A program made the translations under genes and the position numbers. Shown here one piece after another: positions 5,422 to 58,025 of a stretch of 64,000 nt of DNA. Position 1 is the stretch's first letter. Every line of letters begins with the position of its first letter. The notes beneath the pieces were generated by a model, which did not search any database, was not told the DNA's origin, and saw only the letters and a program-made list of their open reading frames with translations. This DNA comes from Bacteroidota bacterium (lineage in GTDB: Bacteria > Bacteroidota > Bacteroidia > UKL13-3). Location of the stretch: assembly GCA_027484685.1 (NCBI GenBank), contig JAIXSO010000047.1, positions 124,001 through 188,000 on the forward strand, read 5' to 3'.

Positions 5422-7071
5422 TTAAAATGTTAAAGTAACTCCACCTAAAATATTGAAACCATAAACATCGTAATTGGTAAAGCGCATATAGCGAGCAGCT
5501 GCCATATTATTACAGTTAATAAATACTGATACATTTTTATTGTATCTGTAATCTATTCCTAAGTTTAAATCAACAAACGGATTTAATTTTACTTCAGTTA
5601 TATTGTCTTTATTTCCTGTGGTTGGGTTAGTTACACCTCCTGTTCTTTGTCCAACATAAAATATATCGCCACGTAACATAAACTTATCGCCAATATTATA
5701 GCTAGTATTTAATTTTACTTCTGTGCTTGGGCGGCTGTAAGCAAATTGAAGTTTGCTCATGCTGTAATTATAAGCTTTGGCCAATAAAGCAAATCTCCAT
5801 TTTTCGCCTAACTGATAACTAATATCGGCTGAAAAAGTGGTTAACGTAACCTTTCCTTCATCGTAAATAATTTTTTGTAAACTGCTGCTATCTTGTACAT
5901 AAAAAAGTATATTTTCAATATTGGCTATAGATGCTTGTAACGAGTAATTTAAACCTTTAGCAATATGACCTTTTAAACCAACATACATTTCGAATAAGTT
6001 ATTGGTATTTTTAAAATTGTAATTACGCACAAAAGGATTTTCAGCATTGATACTTCTAAAAGTATTGATACCATAATTACCAGTAACACCTCCTAATACA
6101 GTTAAAACCTTAGGAACTACATGGTATGCAGCTTCTCCAAAAGGATAAAAATGGCTATTTTTTTCGGTTTCTATACTATCAGCAAAATAAGTAAAGTTAA
6201 AACCTGCCCTTAAATAATAACTTTCATCTTCCAAGTTAATACGTGGGTTAAAAATAAAAGCTGTGCGCTGCAATGTATTTGCATTTTTTATATTGCTAAT
6301 ACTATTAATGCCTGTATATAATGTAAAAGGAATATCACTAATGGTTTTACTTAGGTTTCCAGCTATTTTAAAATTATGCTCTACTAAATCAAAGTTATTA
6401 CCTTGAAAATAATAGTTTACATCAAATTTATATTTTAAAGAAAGGCTATCGTTTTTTAAATTCTCTAACGAAATATTTAAATCAAATAGGTTATAAATAT
6501 TTTTTAAAGTATCTTCTTTAGCTCCAATTGCTGTAGGTAAAAAACCATAATTATACACCACATTACGGTGATATAATGCAGAAACACTCAATACCGAATT
6601 ACTAAAAAAACGTTTGCTATGGGCACCCAAAGTATTATTGCTAAAATTGTTAAAATCCCTATCGCCATTGCTCGATAAATGTTTAAAAAACAAACCATTG
6701 TTCCAGGTTTTGTTACGCATACTTGTAATGTAACCTTCGGCCAATGGAGTGGCATAATTTCCAAAACCAAATCTAAAATAGTTATTGCGTAATTTAGGTA
6801 ATAACATATTACCCAAACTAATTGGTTTAATGGTATAAATAGTTGGTGTAGTTTCAGTGTTTAAATCAGGAACTTTGTAGGTAAAAGTTGGCTTTACACT
6901 TTGAGGTTGCTCCGGATTTGGGTTAACTGGAATTTTTATAGACTCAGATAAAGTGGGTACATATTTTATGTTTACGTTAATTCCATCACTGAGGGTATCT
7001 TGCTGCGCCATAGCTGAAAAAGCCATGCCATTTAAAATCAAAAATGCTATATATAATTTAATATTTTTCAT
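5422..7071 (-). CDS. Outer-membrane beta-barrel protein (TonB-receptor-like barrel without plug)
   Basis: Signal peptide, alternating beta-strand pattern, C-terminal GVTLTF. Confidence 0.65.
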   Translation of the reverse strand: MKNIKLYIAFLILNGMAFSAMAQQDTLSDGINVNIKYVPTLSESIKIPVNPNPEQPQSVKPTFTYKVPDLNTETTPTIYTIKPISLGNMLLPKLRNNYFRFGFGNYATPLAEGYITSMRNKTWNNGLFFKHLSSNGDRDFNNFSNNTLGAHSKRFFSNSVLSVSALYHRNVVYNYGFLPTAIGAKEDTLKNIYNLFDLNISLENLKNDSLSLKYKFDVNYYFQGNNFDLVEHNFKIAGNLSKTISDIPFTLYTGINSISNIKNANTLQRTAFIFNPRINLEDESYYLRAGFNFTYFADSIETEKNSHFYPFGEAAYHVVPKVLTVLGGVTGNYGINTFRSINAENPFVRNYNFKNTNNLFEMYVGLKGHIAKGLNYSLQASIANIENILFYVQDSSSLQKIIYDEGKVTLTTFSADISYQLGEKWRFALLAKAYNYSMSKLQFAYSRPSTEVKLNTSYNIGDKFMLRGDIFYVGQRTGGVTNPTTGNKDNITEVKLNPFVDLNLGIDYRYNKNVSVFINCNNMAAARYMRFTNYDVYGFNILGGVTLTF

Positions 7072-7108
7072 ACTTAGTTATGCTTTAAAAAATTACTGTT
7101 ATTAGAAA

Positions 7109-10100
7109 TTAATCGCGGCTTTTTATCCTCTCATCTACTTTCTTTTTCTGTTCTAATTTTCCTTTAGCCTCGTCTTCTTCTATTTTCTTCAACTTTTCTA
7201 AAGCAATAATTTTCAAATCATCTTTACTGTATTCATCAATAATACTTTGTAAAGTAGCTTTGGCTTGGAAATAATCTTTTTGAGCTACATAATTATCGGC
7301 TAATAAAATAAATGATTTAGCTACCCAATATTCGTACTCTCCAAAGTTGTCATTTATTTCGAAAATAGTTTTAATACTTGTTTTATAATCTTTTCTCAAA
7401 TATTGAATCAAAGCAATATTGTAGCTAACTTCTGCACCAATTGCATTTTTCTTATTCTCTTTCAACAAATATTGGAAATCGGCCCAAGCACTGTCAGGTT
7501 TATTACGCGCCATAAAAAATCTTGCAATGTTTAATTTTGCATCTGATAAACCTTCTTTGGTAGCTATACCAGAGTTAACGTATCTAAATGAAACTTGAGT
7601 AGCAGTATCCATTTTATTCATAATCATGGCAGCGCGTAACTGACCTAATAATGATAATTGTAAATTGTCTTTATTACCAGCAATACGCTCTAAAGCAGCA
7701 TAATACTCAAATGCTTTTTCATAATTTTTGCGCAAATAATAAATAACCGCTGTTTGGCGTGTACTTCGTTCCGTAAAATCGCTTCTAATAGCATTGGCTG
7801 TATATTCATAACCAACCAAAGCATCATCGTAAGCTTTTAAAGCATTATCGCTTTCTGCTTTATAGTAATAAGCTTTAGCAGTAAAATAGCCACCCGCAAA
7901 ACGATTTAAATAATTACCAAAACCTTTACTTGCTTTTGAAAAATCGCGATTAGCGCTGTTAAAATCTTTTTTACTATAATATTCCAAAGCAGCTTTGTAA
8001 TTATTAAAAGCCGATTGGTATGTTAATGAATCTTGTGATGAAGCCGATTCCACTATGTTTGGCAAACTTTTTATAAAATCAAAATAGGTATCGCTTTCGC
8101 CTTTACTAACCAAAATATTTTTTAAAACTACCAAACCTTGACGTGCTTCATCGCTATTGGTATAAGTAGTTGAAAGTATTTTCATGGTAGCTATTGCCTC
8201 ATCATCTTTAGCTAAATTAAACAAGGTAAGTCCTTTATTTAAATATGCTTTGCGTATAAACGCGCTTCTTGGATAATTATCAATGATATTGTTAAACCCT
8301 TTTAAAGCATCTTGTAAATTGCCATTTTTTAATTGTTCATCAGCTTTTTCAAACAAAGCATCATCTATAAAAATTGATTTAGGAAAACGCTCAATTAATA
8401 CACCTAACGTGTAAATTTTATCATTTGACTTTTTAATAACACCTTGAATCATGGCTTTTTGGTATAAGGCATAATCGCTTCCATTCAAATCTTTATTGAT
8501 TACTATATTATAAAACTCAATTGATTTTTGGTAACTGCCTTCGGCAAAATAACAATCAGCAATACGTGTTACTGCATCGGTATAAACTTCAGGATTGCTC
8601 ATTTGCGCATCGCGCTCTGCATATTTTTTAAAACTTTCAATGGCATTTTTGTAATCAACCGTTTTTAAATAAGCGTAACCTAAACTATAAAACGACATAT
8701 TATAAAACCTTGCAGCTTTTAACTCTTCAACCATTTGAGCTTTTTTAAACTGCACAATTGCATTGCTGTAAGCAGCATCGCGATAAGCAATTTCGGCTAA
8801 CCAAAAATAGCTCAATCCCACCATTTGCATATTGTATTTTCCTGAAGCTAACACTCTGTTAAAATACTCATCAGCGCCTTTATAATCGTTTTGTAAGTAT
8901 AATTCCTCCGCTCTGTAATAATATATTTTTTGAAGTGTGCTTAAATCCTTGTCGTCTTTATCTTCAATACTTTCTAAAATTTTTATAGCCTCTTTGTAAT
9001 TTTTACTGGTAAGCAATAAATTACTAATTAACCCTTTAGCTTCGGTAATGTATTTTGATTTTGGATAAGATTCAATAAATGATGTTAAATTGGTTAAAGC
9101 ATTGCTATTAGTAGAAATTTCGTAACTTAATTTAGCAGTATTAAATAATGCTTCTTCATTTAAAGAAGGAATAAAACCAAGAGATAAACACTTATTAAAC
9201 GCAGTTCTAGCATTGTTCTTTTTATCAATGGTTAAATAACATTCTGCCAATTGAAAATAGGAATATTGCGATAAAGTATCTGTTTCTTCCGATACTTTTA
9301 AAAAGTTTTCAATAGCTTTATCGAATTGTTTGTTTACTTTATAGGAATAAGCCAATCTGTAAAAATCGTTACGCGAAGGAACCGCAGGCGCCTCGTTCAT
9401 GTATTTAATTAAATAAGGTAAAGCTTTATCGTAATTTTTTTGGATATAATGCGATTGACCTAACATACCAGCTACATCTATTACCACATCTGGATTGGTA
9501 ATGGTATCACAATACTTAATTACTTGGCTGTAATCTTTTTTAGCAAAATAAATTTGAGCTACATACACATTGCTTAAAGGACCAAAAGTTTTATGGTTTT
9601 TTACACGACCAAAATGTTCTAAAGCTTCTTGATAATTGGCTTGACGGTAACAAACATAACCATAATAGTAATTTACAGCCTCGTAATATTTTGTTTTAGG
9701 GTCTTTAATTTTTCTGAATGCTTTTTGCGATTCATCAAAATTTTCGATTTTAAAATTACAAAAACCTTTAATGAAATAATATTCCAATTGTTGGTTATCA
9801 TCTAAATATTCATCATCAAAATCAACCAACATAGAGGCTGCTTTTTTATAATCTTTATTTCTATAATAATGACGTGCCAGTTGGTATTTTGCTAAAACAG
9901 CTTTATCGTATTGAGGATATTTTTTTATGATGTTTAAAAGCAACTTTGGCGCATCGTTATTGGCCAATTCCATAGCACAAGTGGCTGCATAATATTTTGC
10001 ATTTACCACATAAACTTCATCTTTAATTTTATCGGCAAACATGTTGAAATGTTTTTGAGCTGCCGCGTACTTTTCTTTATCAAAAAGCTCTATGGCACGC

Positions 10101-50881: not shown

Positions 50882-52006
50882 TTGCATAGAATGAAACGAA
50901 TAATTTTTCCAATAATAATTGCTTTACTTTTTACTGTTAGTGCGCGTGCACAAAAATTATTTCCTATTTTACTAAAAGAAAAATGGGGCTACATGAACCA
51001 AGAAGGAAAAGTGGTAATTACCCCTAAATACGATATTGCCATGGAGTTTAATGAAGGCCATGCAGTAGTGGCTTTAGACAATATGCCATGTTTAATTAAT
51101 ATCAACGAAAAGCGAGTAATTGACACAGGTTTGTATGAGTTTATTTCAACTTACAGTGAAGGCAGTTGTGCTGTACGCAATTTTAAAAAACGCTGGAGTT
51201 ATGTAAATGGTGCAGGAAAAACCATTTTAAAATTAGATTCATTTATATACGAAGCCAACCCTTTTCACAATGGTTTAGCGCGCGTAAGTCGCCAAGTTGA
51301 CGATATTACCCAAAAATTCGGTTTTGATATTTCAAGATTATCGTATCGTTTTGCTTACCTTAAAACAGATGGCAAATATGCCAGTGAATTTATTTACCGA
51401 GATGCAGAAGATTTTGAAAATAACATTGCTCGTGTTAAAGAAAACACCCTAACTTATTTAATAAACAATAAGTTTGAAAAAAAATGTAATGAACTAACAG
51501 AAATTGGTAAGTTTAATGAAGGCTTAGCTGTAATTATTGACAATGGAAAATTTGGCTACATAAATACCAATGGAGAAATTGCAATTCCGGCTCAATTTGA
51601 TTATGCCAGTATGTTTTACAATGGTTTTGCCGAGGTAGAAATAACAGGAAAATCGTGTTTTATTAATACACTTGGCGAAAAACAATTTGAAGCAAAATTT
51701 GAAGAAATTAGACCTTATGGCGAAGGTTTTGCTGGATTTAAACAATTGGGTAAATATGGTTTTATAAATGCCAAAGGCGATTTAATGATGCAACCATATT
51801 ACGATGATGTGGCCTATTTTGTAAATGGTTTATGCCCCGTAAGAAAAGGTCAAAATTGGGGCGCAATTAACAAAGAAGGTAAACTTATTTTAAAATTGGA
51901 ATTTGACTATGTAGGTCCTTTTGAAGATGGTGTGGCCGAAGTCATTTACAAAGGCGTTTCGTTATATGCTGATACCAAAGGAAACTTACTTCCTATTTGG
52001 GAATAA
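50882..52006 (+). CDS. WG-repeat protein
   Basis: Repeats such as KWGYMNQEGKVVITPKYD, KFGYINTNGEIAIPAQFDYA, KYGFINAKGDLMMQPYYDDV, NWGAINKEGKLILKLEFDYV. Confidence 0.92.
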   Translation: MHRMKRIIFPIIIALLFTVSARAQKLFPILLKEKWGYMNQEGKVVITPKYDIAMEFNEGHAVVALDNMPCLININEKRVIDTGLYEFISTYSEGSCAVRNFKKRWSYVNGAGKTILKLDSFIYEANPFHNGLARVSRQVDDITQKFGFDISRLSYRFAYLKTDGKYASEFIYRDAEDFENNIARVKENTLTYLINNKFEKKCNELTEIGKFNEGLAVIIDNGKFGYINTNGEIAIPAQFDYASMFYNGFAEVEITGKSCFINTLGEKQFEAKFEEIRPYGEGFAGFKQLGKYGFINAKGDLMMQPYYDDVAYFVNGLCPVRKGQNWGAINKEGKLILKLEFDYVGPFEDGVAEVIYKGVSLYADTKGNLLPIWE

Positions 52007-52049: not shown

Positions 52050-52241
52050 ATGACCTATCTTTCAATAAATACAAACAAAAAAGAAGCTAAATTATTTTTA
52101 GAATATATTAAAACACTTTCCTTCGTGACTATTCATCAAGAGCCAAATGAAATCACAAAAAAGGCAATTGAAGAGGTAAAACAAGGCAAAACAAAAAAAC
52201 ATAAAAGTGCTAAAGAATTGACAGCTTTTTTAAATAAATAA
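52050..52241 (+). CDS. Antitoxin of a type II TA pair
   Basis: 63-aa ORF 2 nt upstream of a YafQ-like toxin; NEITKKAIEEVKQGK. Confidence 0.65.
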   Translation: MTYLSINTNKKEAKLFLEYIKTLSFVTIHQEPNEITKKAIEEVKQGKTKKHKSAKELTAFLNK

Positions 52242-52243
52242 AT

Positions 52244-52516
52244 TTGTTTACACTACATACAACTAAGCAGTTTCAAAAAGACTACAAATTATGTATCAAA
52301 AGAAATTTGAATTTAAAGTTAATAAATTCAACTTTTGAAATATTGGAAAAAACAGGAACCTTACCTACAAAATACAAAACACATAAATTGAGAGGTAATT
52401 ATGAAAACCATTGGGAATGCCATATCCAACCTGATTGGCTTTTAATTTGGTTTTGTGATTTAGAAAAAAAAGAAATTCACCTAATTAGAACTGGCACCCA
52501 CAGCGATTTATTTTAA
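52244..52516 (+). CDS. YafQ-family mRNA interferase-like toxin, TTG start
   Basis: TTKQFQKDYKLCIKRNLNLKLINSTFEILEKTGTLPTKYKTHKLRGNYENHWECHIQPDWLLIW. Confidence 0.88.
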   Translation: MFTLHTTKQFQKDYKLCIKRNLNLKLINSTFEILEKTGTLPTKYKTHKLRGNYENHWECHIQPDWLLIWFCDLEKKEIHLIRTGTHSDLF

Positions 52517-52532
52517 TTAACCCAATTATTTT

Positions 52533-55500
52533 ATGTTTTTAAAAGTTATAAAACCATTTCTTTTATTCTATTTTATTGTTAATGGTTTAATAGCTAGTGC
52601 TCAAACAGACTCATTGCTGCAAGCGCAAATGAAGTTTGATTTAGGTTTGGTACGCGATAAAAACAGACATTTATGGCCTTTGGTTTATAAACATAAAACA
52701 CAAGATTATAAAGATTTACAGCTGTTATTTACCATTTATAGAAATTACCAATCGTATAGTAATCCTTCTAGGCATAACCATATTTTACCTTTTTATTGGT
52801 ACGATAGCAATGCTGCCATTAAAGATGTAAGAATTGGCACCTTATTTTATCCTAACTTATTCAGAATAATAAGCGATACCAGCAATCAAAGTAAATCGTT
52901 TAGGTTTTTGGAATTAGCACCTGAAATTAGTCTGTTAAACGTTACAAAATCTAAAACAGGCTTACTTACTCAAAACAACTTTTTCTTTTTTATTTGGGGC
53001 AAAAACGATGTGCTGAATCAAAAAAGTAACTTCGTTGTTTTTCCAATTTATTGGTATTATAATAACAAATACAGAACTTCTAACACCCTTTTTCCAATTT
53101 ATAAATATGTAAAAATAAAAGATGTGAAGGAGCAAAAATTTACTTTTTACCCTGCACTTTATTTTTATAAAAAAGACGATCAAGTAGTTCGTCACTCGCT
53201 TGGATTGGTATTTTACACCAAAAAGTATGATAAAGGAATGGCTCGAAAAACAGTATTATTCCCAATATTGTTTAGCAATTTTAATACTGAATTTAAAAAG
53301 TTTACGCTTATACCGTTATTACATTATGACAAAGTAAAATCCAATAACAAATTAAATTTAGGAATAACACCTTTGTTTTGGCATAAAAGCACCAACTATT
53401 CAAACCGAAATATATTGTTTCCAATTTATTGGCAAAAAAGCGAAACCTATTCCAACGATTCATCAAGAAGAACATTTTTAGCGCCAGTTTACTACAGTAA
53501 GGTAAATCCTATTGAGAAAAAAAAGTACTATATACCATTGGTTTGGTTCGATAGAACTTTAAACGACACTTCCTTAACTATTATTCCAATGTTTTATAGT
53601 AGTAAAAACTATGCAAATATATACCACACTTTATTGCCTTTTTATTTTTATAAAAACAATTATTTTACCCAAACAAAAACCATAGCAATAACACCTTTTT
53701 ATTGGCAAAATAAGGCAGAAAACTATAGTAATTATTGGCTTATTCCTTTTTGGAACAGAGTTAGTTTTATTACCAAAACCGACACCTTTTTTAAACAAAA
53801 CTTTTATCCATTGGTGTATTATAAATCGAATAAAAACATCAATCGTTTAACTTTTTTTCCTTTATTTTACCAAAGTAAAAACAAACAAAGTTTAAGCAAT
53901 AACACCTATATTTTTCCTAACTACCTAAGTGTAACCGATACGCTTAGCAAGTTTAAAACCATTTTACCCATTTATTATTATAATAAAAATAAAGAGGCTA
54001 AAAGCCACGTATTATTACCAATTTGGTTTTACAAAAAAACTTTTGAAGCTGACGATACCACCAAATCGAATTTGATATTGCCCATTTATTATGGCTATAA
54101 AAGTAAGAAAGAAAGCACCACTCTTTTATTGCCCATCTATTATAAAAACAAATACCATTATCAAATTTGGAACGAAAAAACAATTGCCTTGTTCCCTATT
54201 TATTTTAGAAATAAAGTGGATGGAAGAAGTAGTACTTTGGGTATAACACCTTTATATTGGTCGTATTACAAAATTGATAGTACTTTAAAAACATTTGAAA
54301 ATTACCATACTCTATTTCCTATTTGGTGGCAAAAATCGGTTACCAAACATAATTTTACTACTCAAAGTAATACCATTTTACCTATTTATTTTTCTAAAAC
54401 AGAAGGACGTTATAAGCACCAAGTTTTGTTTCCAATTATTTGGAAATACCAAGATACAACTTACTTAAACAGCTTTAAAAGTTTAACTGTTTTTCCGTTT
54501 TACCAAAGTTATAAATTGGCAGATAACAGCTACAAACTAAATGCTTACACGCCTTTGGTTTGGAATATTAAAAGTACCAACAAAAAACAGTTGGTAATAT
54601 TTCCATTAGTATGGACTAATACCCAAAAACTAACTTACGATACCATAAAAAATACGGTAGTCTTCCCTATTTATTGGCGACATACAAGCCGTTTTTATAA
54701 CAATACTACTTTGTTTCCATTCTATTGGAATTTAAATAATGATAGACGTAAAGCTTTAACCATTTTACCTGTTTATTTTAAAAAGCATGACCTTATTACA
54801 CAAACCAAATCTTTGGTTATAGCACCTATTTATTTCAGTAAAAAAGATTCGAACCAAAGTGCCAAAGTTGTATTTCCATTATGGTATTATTTAAAAAATG
54901 ATTCCGTTCAAAGCAAAACATTGTTTCCGTTTTGGTGGTATAAAAATGCAACTGTTAATGGCGTAAAAACTAAAAGCAACGATATTTTTCCTATTTATTT
55001 TTCAAAAACAGAAGGTGCTTACAAACACCAAGTTTTGTTTCCTATAGTTTGGAAATACAAAGATTCTACTTATAGAAACTTAACCATTTTCCCAATTTAC
55101 CATAACTATAAGCTAGTTGATAACAGTTACAAATTAACAGCCTACACACCTTTGGTTTGGAAAGTAAAAAGTGCTAATGAAAATAAATTGGTGCTGTTTC
55201 CTGTAGTATGGAATTTTAAAAATATAACTGCCAACGATACTTTAAAAAACTCCATTTTGTTTCCGTTTTATTGGGATTATAAAAGTAAAAATGAACACAA
55301 TACCACTATTTTCCCATTGTATTGGAGCTACAAAAATAAAGAACGCAAAGCTTTAACTATTTTCCCTTTGGTGTATTTAATCACCAATACTAAAGATAGC
55401 GTTACTACCAAATATTCAAATGTTTTACCAATATACTTTAAAACTAAAAATAGTAACTATACCAACTTATCAGTTTTGCCAGTGTTTTATAAAAAAACCA

Positions 55501-58025
55501 ATTTGTTAACACAAACCAAAAGCTTGGTTGTAGTACCAGTTTATTTTAGCAAAAAAGATTCAAACCAAAGTTATCATGTAGTATTTCCATTATGGTATCA
55601 GTTTAAAAACGATTCAATACAAACCAAAACTTTGTTTCCATTTTGGTGGTATAAAAATGCAACTGTTAACGGCATAAAAACCAAAAGCAACGATATTATT
55701 CCAATTTATTTTTCTAAAACAGAAGGAACTTACAAGCACAAAGTTTTATTTCCTATTGTTTGGAAATACCTAGACACTAGTTATAAAAGTTTAACGTTAT
55801 TTCCGCTTTACCAAAACTATGCACTTACAGATGGTAGCTATCAACTAAAGGCTTATACACCCTTGGTTTGGAAAACAACTAGAACAAATGGTAATGCTTT
55901 AACTGTTCTGCCTTTTTATTATAGTAAAAAAGATTCGAACCAAAGTTATCACATCGTGTTTCCATTATGGTATCAGTTTAAAAACGATTCAATACAGACC
56001 AAAACTTTGTTTCCATTTTGGTGGTATAAAAATGCAACTGTTAATGGTATAAAAACCAAAAGCAACGATATTATTCCAATTTATTTTTCTAAAACAGAAG
56101 GAACTGACAAACATAAAATTTGGTTTCCTATAGTTTGGAAATACCAAGACACCAATTATAAAAGCTTAACTGTATTTCCGCTTTACCAAAAGTATAAGCT
56201 TATTGATGGTAGCTATCAACTAAAAGCTTTTACACCTTTGGTTTGGAAAACAACTCGTATTAATGGAAGTGCCTTAACAGTTTTTCCAATTTATTTTAGT
56301 AAAAAAGATTCAAACCAAAGTTCAAAAGTTCTTTTTCCAATAGTTTGGACCAATAAAAAATTTACCAAAACAGATACACTTAAAAGTTTAGTAGTATTCC
56401 CAATTTATTGGAACTATAAAAGCAAAGCCAATCAATTAACACGACTAAATGTTTTACCTTTTTACTTTAGTTTAAAAGATAAAAACAAAAATAATAAAGT
56501 GGTTTTACCGCTATGGTGGAGTTATAAAAACAAGTTTGATACCACTCAATTATTTATTCCATTATACTTAAAACACATTGACAATAAAGGAAATAGAACT
56601 ACTGGCATAACCCCACTTTATTGGCAAGTTAAAAACAAAAATTATACAAGAAATACCTTATTTCCAATTTGGTGGAGTAAAACCAATTTAACCAATAGCA
56701 CTAAAATACTTTTGCCTTTATGGTATTATAAAACCGATACCAATGGAAGCCATAAAACAGTTGGTATTACTCCTTTGTATTGGTATCATAAAAACAAATC
56801 CTATGTAACGAATACCCTTTACCCTATTTGGTTCACTACTAAAGATAGTAATTACTATTCCAACTTTTTGTTTCCATTGTTTAACTTTCAAAAAAAACCA
56901 AATTTAGTTAAGCTTCATATTTATCCATTCGTTTATAGTTCAGTAACTCCTAAACTTAAATATTTCTTGTTATTTCCATTGTATTACAACGAAACCAAAA
57001 GAGAGCTTGGACAAACCAATAAGTTAACCATGCTTACTCCTTTGATTTGGATTACTAAAGATTCAACCCATAATCTAGATTACAGTTGGAGAATTTTACC
57101 ACTATTTACTCATAAATATTTTAAAGACGATAACTACAGCAAAACTAGTAATTCGCTTTTCCCGCTTTATTTTAATGTTGTTAAACGAGATAGTAATACT
57201 GTAACTAATAAAGAACATATCTTATTTCCAATAGTTTGGAGCTTTACATCAACCAATTCAAAATGGTTCACCTTTGTTCCATTAATGCATTATAATAAAA
57301 ACCAAACAAGTAGAAACTTGGCTATTACTCCCCTATTTTGGAGTATAAATAATGCTAAAAAACAACAAAATTTACTGTGGCCTTTATATAACTACAATCG
57401 TTTTAAAGACAATAGAAATACCCGTTTTAACATAGCCTATGTACTTTTTAGGTATCAAAAAACCAATAAAGTAAAAGCATGGAGTATTGCCTGGCCTTTG
57501 GTTCAGCGTATTAAAGGTGATAATTACAGTTATTTTCATGCTGCGCCAATTGTTTGGTATAAAAAGTCGGACAGCATGAATTATTTATCTATTCAGCCAC
57601 TGTTTTTTAGCCAAAAAACCAATGAATACAAACGTTTTCAATTACTTTGGCAACTGTATAGTTACAGAAAAACATTTAACATAAAAACTACAAACAGCTT
57701 TTTATGGCGTACTTTTTATAACACCAAATACACCAATGGCGACTACGAAAACCGATTGTTATACAAACTGTATGTAAACAATAAAAAAGACAGCAGCACC
57801 GAAAAAACTTTACTGCCACTTTACAGCATCGAAAAACAAAAAAATGGTGATTATTACAAAGGGTATTTTTTAAGCATTTATCAAAAAACCAAAACGCAAA
57901 TACCTAATACCAACCACTACTATTTAGAAGAAAAAATATTTTGGTTTTTACGTTTACGAAGTAACTTCAATTACCTAAAACAAAAAGGCATTGTTACTGA
58001 TAGAAAATCTTTGATTCAGAAATAG
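52533..58025 (+). CDS. Giant (1830 aa) secreted repeat protein of unknown function
   Basis: Signal peptide (FLLFYFIVNGLIASAQ); about 85 hand-counted P-[ILVF]-[YWF]-type motifs (LFPIYW, FPFWW, TPLVW); I saw no Cys. Confidence 0.9.
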   Translation: MFLKVIKPFLLFYFIVNGLIASAQTDSLLQAQMKFDLGLVRDKNRHLWPLVYKHKTQDYKDLQLLFTIYRNYQSYSNPSRHNHILPFYWYDSNAAIKDVRIGTLFYPNLFRIISDTSNQSKSFRFLELAPEISLLNVTKSKTGLLTQNNFFFFIWGKNDVLNQKSNFVVFPIYWYYNNKYRTSNTLFPIYKYVKIKDVKEQKFTFYPALYFYKKDDQVVRHSLGLVFYTKKYDKGMARKTVLFPILFSNFNTEFKKFTLIPLLHYDKVKSNNKLNLGITPLFWHKSTNYSNRNILFPIYWQKSETYSNDSSRRTFLAPVYYSKVNPIEKKKYYIPLVWFDRTLNDTSLTIIPMFYSSKNYANIYHTLLPFYFYKNNYFTQTKTIAITPFYWQNKAENYSNYWLIPFWNRVSFITKTDTFFKQNFYPLVYYKSNKNINRLTFFPLFYQSKNKQSLSNNTYIFPNYLSVTDTLSKFKTILPIYYYNKNKEAKSHVLLPIWFYKKTFEADDTTKSNLILPIYYGYKSKKESTTLLLPIYYKNKYHYQIWNEKTIALFPIYFRNKVDGRSSTLGITPLYWSYYKIDSTLKTFENYHTLFPIWWQKSVTKHNFTTQSNTILPIYFSKTEGRYKHQVLFPIIWKYQDTTYLNSFKSLTVFPFYQSYKLADNSYKLNAYTPLVWNIKSTNKKQLVIFPLVWTNTQKLTYDTIKNTVVFPIYWRHTSRFYNNTTLFPFYWNLNNDRRKALTILPVYFKKHDLITQTKSLVIAPIYFSKKDSNQSAKVVFPLWYYLKNDSVQSKTLFPFWWYKNATVNGVKTKSNDIFPIYFSKTEGAYKHQVLFPIVWKYKDSTYRNLTIFPIYHNYKLVDNSYKLTAYTPLVWKVKSANENKLVLFPVVWNFKNITANDTLKNSILFPFYWDYKSKNEHNTTIFPLYWSYKNKERKALTIFPLVYLITNTKDSVTTKYSNVLPIYFKTKNSNYTNLSVLPVFYKKTNLLTQTKSLVVVPVYFSKKDSNQSYHVVFPLWYQFKNDSIQTKTLFPFWWYKNATVNGIKTKSNDIIPIYFSKTEGTYKHKVLFPIVWKYLDTSYKSLTLFPLYQNYALTDGSYQLKAYTPLVWKTTRTNGNALTVLPFYYSKKDSNQSYHIVFPLWYQFKNDSIQTKTLFPFWWYKNATVNGIKTKSNDIIPIYFSKTEGTDKHKIWFPIVWKYQDTNYKSLTVFPLYQKYKLIDGSYQLKAFTPLVWKTTRINGSALTVFPIYFSKKDSNQSSKVLFPIVWTNKKFTKTDTLKSLVVFPIYWNYKSKANQLTRLNVLPFYFSLKDKNKNNKVVLPLWWSYKNKFDTTQLFIPLYLKHIDNKGNRTTGITPLYWQVKNKNYTRNTLFPIWWSKTNLTNSTKILLPLWYYKTDTNGSHKTVGITPLYWYHKNKSYVTNTLYPIWFTTKDSNYYSNFLFPLFNFQKKPNLVKLHIYPFVYSSVTPKLKYFLLFPLYYNETKRELGQTNKLTMLTPLIWITKDSTHNLDYSWRILPLFTHKYFKDDNYSKTSNSLFPLYFNVVKRDSNTVTNKEHILFPIVWSFTSTNSKWFTFVPLMHYNKNQTSRNLAITPLFWSINNAKKQQNLLWPLYNYNRFKDNRNTRFNIAYVLFRYQKTNKVKAWSIAWPLVQRIKGDNYSYFHAAPIVWYKKSDSMNYLSIQPLFFSQKTNEYKRFQLLWQLYSYRKTFNIKTTNSFLWRTFYNTKYTNGDYENRLLYKLYVNNKKDSSTEKTLLPLYSIEKQKNGDYYKGYFLSIYQKTKTQIPNTNHYYLEEKIFWFLRLRSNFNYLKQKGIVTDRKSLIQK
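55548..56297 (+). repeat. Two adjacent near-identical 375-nt (125-aa) repeats within the giant gene (units start at 55548 and 55923); related unit at 54837, truncated unit at 56298
   Basis: SKKDSNQSYH(V/I)VFPLWYQFKNDSIQTKTLFPFWWYKNATVNGIKTKSNDIIPIYFSKTEGT... aligned by eye. Confidence 0.95.

Follow-up and report, generated by a model that had tools for sequence, protein, structure and literature searches.

A giant, length-variable repeat protein of uncultured Bacteroidota that may form a single-layer antiparallel β-hairpin ribbon

MORN repeats are tandem β-hairpins of 23 aa with two 6-residue strands each, which together build one elongated, twisted antiparallel sheet with Trp/Tyr stacking (PMC7725318). 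The TCP/G-box domain of CPAP is a single-layer open β-meander of about 20 antiparallel strands, both faces of which are exposed (PMC3776556). These two are the best architectural analogues of the giant protein described here. As in MORN proteins, its unit is predicted, from AF2 models and covariation, to be a hairpin with two short strands in a continuous sheet; however, MORN units have 23 aa, Gly-rich GxG and YEGEW motifs and longer loops, whereas the giant protein has units of 17–21 aa with an F-P-aliphatic turn, in ~95 copies, and is apparently exported. The MORN profile (PF02493) gave no match at E ≤ 1 in the giant protein or at E ≤ 0.01 in 18 family members. The CPAP G-box resembles it as a single-layer antiparallel meander, but this domain is eukaryotic, spans ~180 residues and binds a proline-rich peptide, and no sequence similarity to the giant protein was found. 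YD/RHS repeats and teneurins likewise form long strips of short β-hairpins and were matched in structure searches, but neither the giant protein nor the 18 members carry an RHS/YD Pfam match, a recognised cargo or a self-cleaving core. Finally, the β-belt of ApoB100 is also a long continuous antiparallel ribbon; it has no sequence relation to the giant protein, and the likeness is probably a generic match between long meanders.

The stretch analysed here (the window) comprises 64,000 nucleotides from an uncultured Bacteroidia bacterium, and its giant gene is an ORF with an ATG start (Table 1). The product contains no Cys, 61 Trp, 166 Tyr, 138 Phe and 210 Lys, and the net charge is basic in all family members (+25 to +160). 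By eye, the N-terminus, MFLKVIKPFLLFYFIVNGLIASAQ, is a signal peptide ending in ..ASAQ, without a lipobox Cys; the N-termini of the family are also signal-like, mostly ending in AQ or SQ. Export of the giant protein is thus supported, the signal peptide being its only basis. A reading made from the sequence alone had described a secreted protein with a signal peptide and no Cys, which agrees with these observations, and had seen no T9SS tail; indeed, no Pfam or NCBIfam model of the T9SS C-terminal sorting domain matched the giant protein or its family members. Its statement that no named domain is present also held, apart from a sub-threshold link to an NCBIfam family (see below): nothing above cut-off was found in Pfam, NCBIfam or PDB sequences. 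Sequence searches of PDB, PADLOC, plasmids and phages with the giant protein or its family returned nothing useful; no relatives turned up in IMG/VR, and a GC-rich motif pattern matched nothing. PHROGs yielded short matches of unknown function, limited to one or two family members; PHROG 14773 (unknown function, 56 positions), for example, matched positions 55602-55685 (residues 1024-1051) with E 4.8e-7 in 2 of 18 members and is too short to interpret. A sub-threshold Pfam match to BglII endonuclease at 55017-55139 (residues 829-869; E 0.0015, 18.8 vs 26 bits) was judged compositional.

Table 1. Features of the giant gene (window coordinates)
Feature	Positions	Strand	Basis or remark
Full ORF, giant hairpin-repeat protein (predicted unit), 1830 aa	52533..58025	+	orthologs; dN/dS 0.12
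Putative signal peptide, residues 1-24	52533..52604	+	by eye; signal-like N-termini in family
Conserved N-terminal region, residues 25-170	52605..53042	+	invariant columns in family alignments
Repeat array, residues 46-1768, ~94 putative hairpin units of 17/19/21 residues	52668..57836	+	core spacing, interval counts
In-frame tandem duplication of recent origin; unit of 375 nt (125 aa, 7 repeats)	55529..56203	+	89% identity across 300 nt
55-aa block, 3 repeats (21+17+17), residues 1139-1193	55947..56111	+	missing in sibling ortholog
Conserved C-terminal cap, residues 1680-1830	57570..58022	+	ends ..EEKIFWFLRLRSN..LKQKG..; lowest dN/dS (0.07) in residues 1500-1830

The earlier count of about 85 aromatic P-phi-[YWF] motifs was a fair estimate. 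Strict P-[ILVFMWYA]-[YWFVH] cores number 78, against 10.6 +/- 3.0 in composition shuffles (maximum 24 in 2000), while interval counting, which uses a slightly wider core definition, admits degenerate cores inside longer gaps and across long gaps rests partly on judgement, gives ~94 units. The same reading had spoken of regular segments of some 15-30 residues. The regularity stands and is stronger than was stated, but the spacing does not, being quantised at 17 (42 times), 21 (13 times) and 19 (9 times) residues from core to core. Longer gaps are mostly sums of these values; thus, nearly the whole mature chain lies in one register. Relative to the core Pro (position 0), units have Val/Ile/Ala/Thr at -3, Leu/Ile/Val at -2 (99% hydrophobic) and Phe or Thr at -1, followed by Leu/Ile/Phe at +1, Tyr/Phe/Val/Trp at +2, Trp/Tyr/Phe at +3 and polar residues at about +6 to +12. 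The 19-residue unit differs in having Ser at +3 (74%) and Gly at +5 (72%), and in the unit after it Ala is frequent at -3 (39%), as is Thr at -1 (70%); together they make a small-residue notch, once per five-unit cycle. In Bacteroidales-type members this cycle is exact (17-17-19-17-21 = 91 aa), and in one of them, L079, it is repeated up to ~10 times, whereas the window protein arranges these unit types less regularly. The N-terminal region keeps the strand register of the array with fewer Pro cores, and carries the motifs DxGhhRxxNxxhWP, YYP... and NNxhFFhW. Sequence of the duplicated 375-nt unit occurs a third time at 54818-55117. The ~10 near-identical 91-aa five-hairpin cycles of L079 (5296-9603) would be a clean natural template for structural work. 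An ortholog from Flavobacteriia (L071, 2027-6556) has another cycle, 17-17-17-17-33-33, with two consecutive long polar loops.

A search of 58 genomes found orthologs in six close relatives in addition to the window genome; with the own genome counted, they also occurred in 12 of the 395 genomes of a class sample (~3% of the sampled Bacteroidia, mostly MAGs). A named genome collection contained 22 loci, all from MAGs of Bacteroidales, Flavobacteriales, Bacteroidia or unclassified Bacteroidetes, and in a draw of 396 genomes from the phylum the own genome was the sole carrier found. Complete members have 782-1830 aa; their N- and C-terminal regions are conserved, while the number of repeats between them varies from ~35 to ~95. 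Against the ortholog of a sibling species, the window gene shows dN 0.041 and dS 0.335, with the lowest dN/dS (0.07) in residues 1500-1830; the giant ORF is a real gene under purifying selection. Overall, this is a repeat family that is widespread yet unnamed in uncultured Bacteroidota. Similar LFPLYW-type proteins may also occur in Myxococcota.

The sole sequence lead is NF047486 LA_1737 (LA_1737_Cterm), presumably a Leptospira family, judging by the locus name; our literature search for LA_1737 found no paper. The best score to this profile was 23.2 bits (L069), with 18.6 bits in the own genome, against a curated cut-off of 60 bits. However low, these hits fall inside the repeat region of the giant family in six of six cases in the own genome (all in this gene) and in nine of ten in a 17-genome panel. 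Sub-threshold matches to the giant gene occurred in its own genome and, of nine tested genomes with an ortholog, in five, with one match elsewhere. Such a pattern may lead to a wider family, and does not amount to membership in LA_1737.

Covariation was measured as mutual information over 500-611 repeats with type-preserving permutations; as the repeats are related, their effective number is ~160-200. The strongest line within the repeat is antiparallel, joining positions -k and +k (a+b=0; adjusted Z 1.33, reached in none of 300 permutations), which indicates that the two halves of the repeat face each other, with the Pro at the hairpin turn. Across the polar turn, a very strong signal couples +2 to -4 in the following repeat (Z 12.8), so that successive repeats would pair through this turn. 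Taken together, the two signals point to a continuous antiparallel ribbon of short strands. A parallel line between the left halves of neighbouring repeats was also significant; it could arise if neighbouring repeats share an environment.

Structure prediction gave a similar picture. The AF2 model of ortholog L061 (1054 aa, 18-row alignment; mean pLDDT 64, 70-88 over most of the array, pTM 0.42) is all β, interrupted at the Pro and again at the polar turn, although some 21-residue units have a one-residue gap at the Pro. In the model of L060, the shortest complete ortholog (mean pLDDT 57, pTM 0.35), the confident stretch at residues 480-620 (~80) reads EEEEE---EEEEEE-- per repeat, that is, two strands of 5-6 residues with gaps at the Pro triplet and the polar turn; the N- and C-terminal regions were poorly modelled in both. 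Among the architectures that the sequence-only reading had offered, it is stacked β-hairpins that the two models and the covariation support. Foldseek placed the ApoB100 belt first for the L061 model (E 1e-9; fragment 9coo, TMt 0.50), together with LptD, Rhs, TonB-dependent receptors, VDAC and a weak match to the lipid-transfer protein LPD-3. For the L060 model, it returned the teneurin YD shell, ROS1, the OspA single-layer sheet, the CPAP TCP/G-box (4bxr; prob 1.00, TMt 0.38), Rhs and many propeller proteins, with ApoB ranked lower (E 1e-3). Global TM-scores being low, we take these matches as hints on the type of sheet and not as homology.

From this we put forward, with about even confidence, a Sec-exported, length-variable β-hairpin-repeat protein that forms a single-layer antiparallel ribbon and serves as an envelope scaffold or tether; its supported parts are the repeat structure, the antiparallel pairing at both turns, the export signal, the constraint and the conserved ends. 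Each unit of 17-21 residues would be a hairpin whose two strands are short, 5-6 residues each, with one turn at the near-invariant [F/T]-P-[L/I/F] and the other at the polar Lys/Asn/Ser/Asp stretch, the sole element that varies in length. Successive hairpins would be hydrogen-bonded into one continuous single layer of ~190 strands, roughly 90 nm long if fully extended, or a coil with that contour length. The position profiles of the units, from which the two rims and the notch were derived, would place all Pro turns on one hydrophobic rim, where stacking of the flanking Leu/Tyr/Trp replaces a core, and all polar turns on the opposite, strongly basic rim. The notch, recurring every five hairpins (Ser +3, Gly +5, then Ala -3, Thr -1), is probably a bend or a docking site. 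Against this ribbon, the ApoB100 belt as top match and the one-residue Pro gaps would also fit one long, Pro-kinked strand per repeat; this model, suggested by L061, was set aside as less probable after the covariation analysis and the L060 model.

One strand per repeat is also what a giant transmembrane β-barrel or membrane-spanning belt would require, with strands of 13-15 residues, a Pro in the middle of each, and ~95 of them in the outer membrane. On both faces of the sheet, hydrophobic residues surround the core and polar ones lie farther out, the export signal comes without an anchor, and LptD, TonB-dependent receptors and VDAC were matched by the L061 model, but TM-scores of that model to barrels were ~0.1, and the L060 model, itself of low global confidence, had no barrel among the matches listed. 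The parity of the repeats also argues against single strands. The window protein and its sibling ortholog have 93 vs 90 repeat intervals, a clean difference of one 55-aa block of three repeats, and L059 and L060 (58% identical) have 35 vs 34; with one strand per repeat, such odd insertions, like the odd five-unit cycle, would flip the topology of everything downstream. An odd cycle of single strands should moreover make unit identity at lag 10 exceed that at lag 5, yet in L079 it is 0.74 and 0.77, respectively, and ~0.25 at other lags. A hairpin unit explains both the odd steps and the equal identities, while a barrel leaves the -k/+k covariation inside repeats unexplained. Conserved strand parity had been considered as support for a barrel and was dropped when systematic counting gave mixed parity. 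Thus, the barrel proposed in the sequence-only reading is disfavoured, and we regard it as unlikely. Its other proposal, a very long β-solenoid, would, if parallel and with one 17-21 residue coil per repeat, suit a short and constant repeat and the parallel line joining left halves of neighbours; however, the strongest covariation, both within the repeat and across the turn, is antiparallel, and Foldseek returned antiparallel sheets, with no solenoid among the matches listed for either model, making this fold very improbable.

Two further scenarios, both rather unlikely in our estimation but live alternatives for function, keep the ribbon and change its use. It might spiral into a closed Rhs/teneurin-like shell round a cargo or cavity, its Pro and polar rims coming into contact from turn to turn. 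Teneurin, Rhs Tse15, TcB-TcC and VgrG-Rhs cores were indeed among the Foldseek matches of the two models, the hairpin-strip principle is shared with them, and the hydrophobic rim needs burial; yet RHS/YD matches and cargo domains are missing as described above, and the C-terminus is the best conserved part, not a polymorphic one. Slightly more doubtful still is a lipid function, in which the ribbon would rest on lipid in the manner of the ApoB belt, or fold into a groove through which lipid moves between the membranes; the ApoB100 and LPD-3 matches of the L061 model and a wide hydrophobic stripe on one face would point that way. This is countered by the lower rank of ApoB with the L060 model, the missing sequence relation to ApoB, the strongly basic polar rim and the lack of conserved lipid-transport neighbours.

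Neighbouring genes vary. Genes for an asparaginase, a chorismate-binding enzyme and a WG-repeat protein lie upstream and are conserved within the genus. The WG-repeat protein (50882-52006, +; PF14903 in six stretches; signal-like N-terminus) is encoded 5' of the giant gene in the members of the genus that carry the latter; PF14903 has no match in the giant protein, and homology between the two was rejected, as hhalign aligned only their signal peptides. In the window, a YafQ-type toxin gene (52244-52516, +; PF15738) and, just upstream, a 63-aa ORF that looks like its antitoxin (52050-52241) sit between the WG-repeat gene and the giant gene (the pair spans 52050-52516). In the window and in G006, the giant gene has the WG gene before it (in the window separated from it by the YafQ pair) and RND efflux genes after it. 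Elsewhere, what lies between the WG gene and mnmE (identified by eye) varies: G001 and G005 have the giant gene in this slot, G002 has a related YafQ-type toxin preceded by a small ORF, and G003 has type III restriction-modification genes together with a Fic gene; the slot is empty in G008 and G009 and split over contigs in G004. Over six loci, this slot appears as a hotspot of accessory genes whose contents go by species, including Fic and PLD-like genes with type III restriction-modification. At the L061 locus only, an HTH control-type gene and an N6 DNA methylase lie downstream of the ortholog (6818-8390), a restriction-modification context. A defence role is not claimed from the variable slot, the other loci having mainly housekeeping neighbours. 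In other lineages the neighbours differ, and no operon partner is conserved across genera; the giant gene is therefore accessory, without an evident obligate partner.

Returning to the hairpin ribbon, its functional part is weakly based and has almost no direct support, gene neighbours differing across genera. Since the ribbon would be long, exported and unanchored, with a hydrophobic rim of constant length and a basic rim of variable length, it is tempting to suppose that it docks one edge and exposes the other. It may lie in the periplasm or outer membrane, its hydrophobic rim docked on a membrane or a second ribbon and its basic rim in contact with anionic envelope polymers, as a scaffold or tether whose length could be tuned by repeat duplication. 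A bolder version, which we think improbable, is a fence of ~50-90 nm along the membrane edge, whose Phe-Pro-aliphatic rim would be sunk from end to end into a single leaflet of the outer membrane, with the basic rim bound to peptidoglycan or LPS; if true, it would represent a monotopic envelope cytoskeleton of a new class, tuned by the number of its repeats.

Our results define an uncharacterised repeat, an unusually compact hairpin, as we read it, of 17 residues in ~95 copies, which occurs across uncultured Bacteroidota and possibly in Leptospira. Should the ribbon prove true, it would be a natural, length-tunable single-layer β-sheet, far longer than the CPAP G-box with its ~20 strands, and would bear on how flat β-sheets avoid aggregation and on large unanchored proteins of the Gram-negative envelope.
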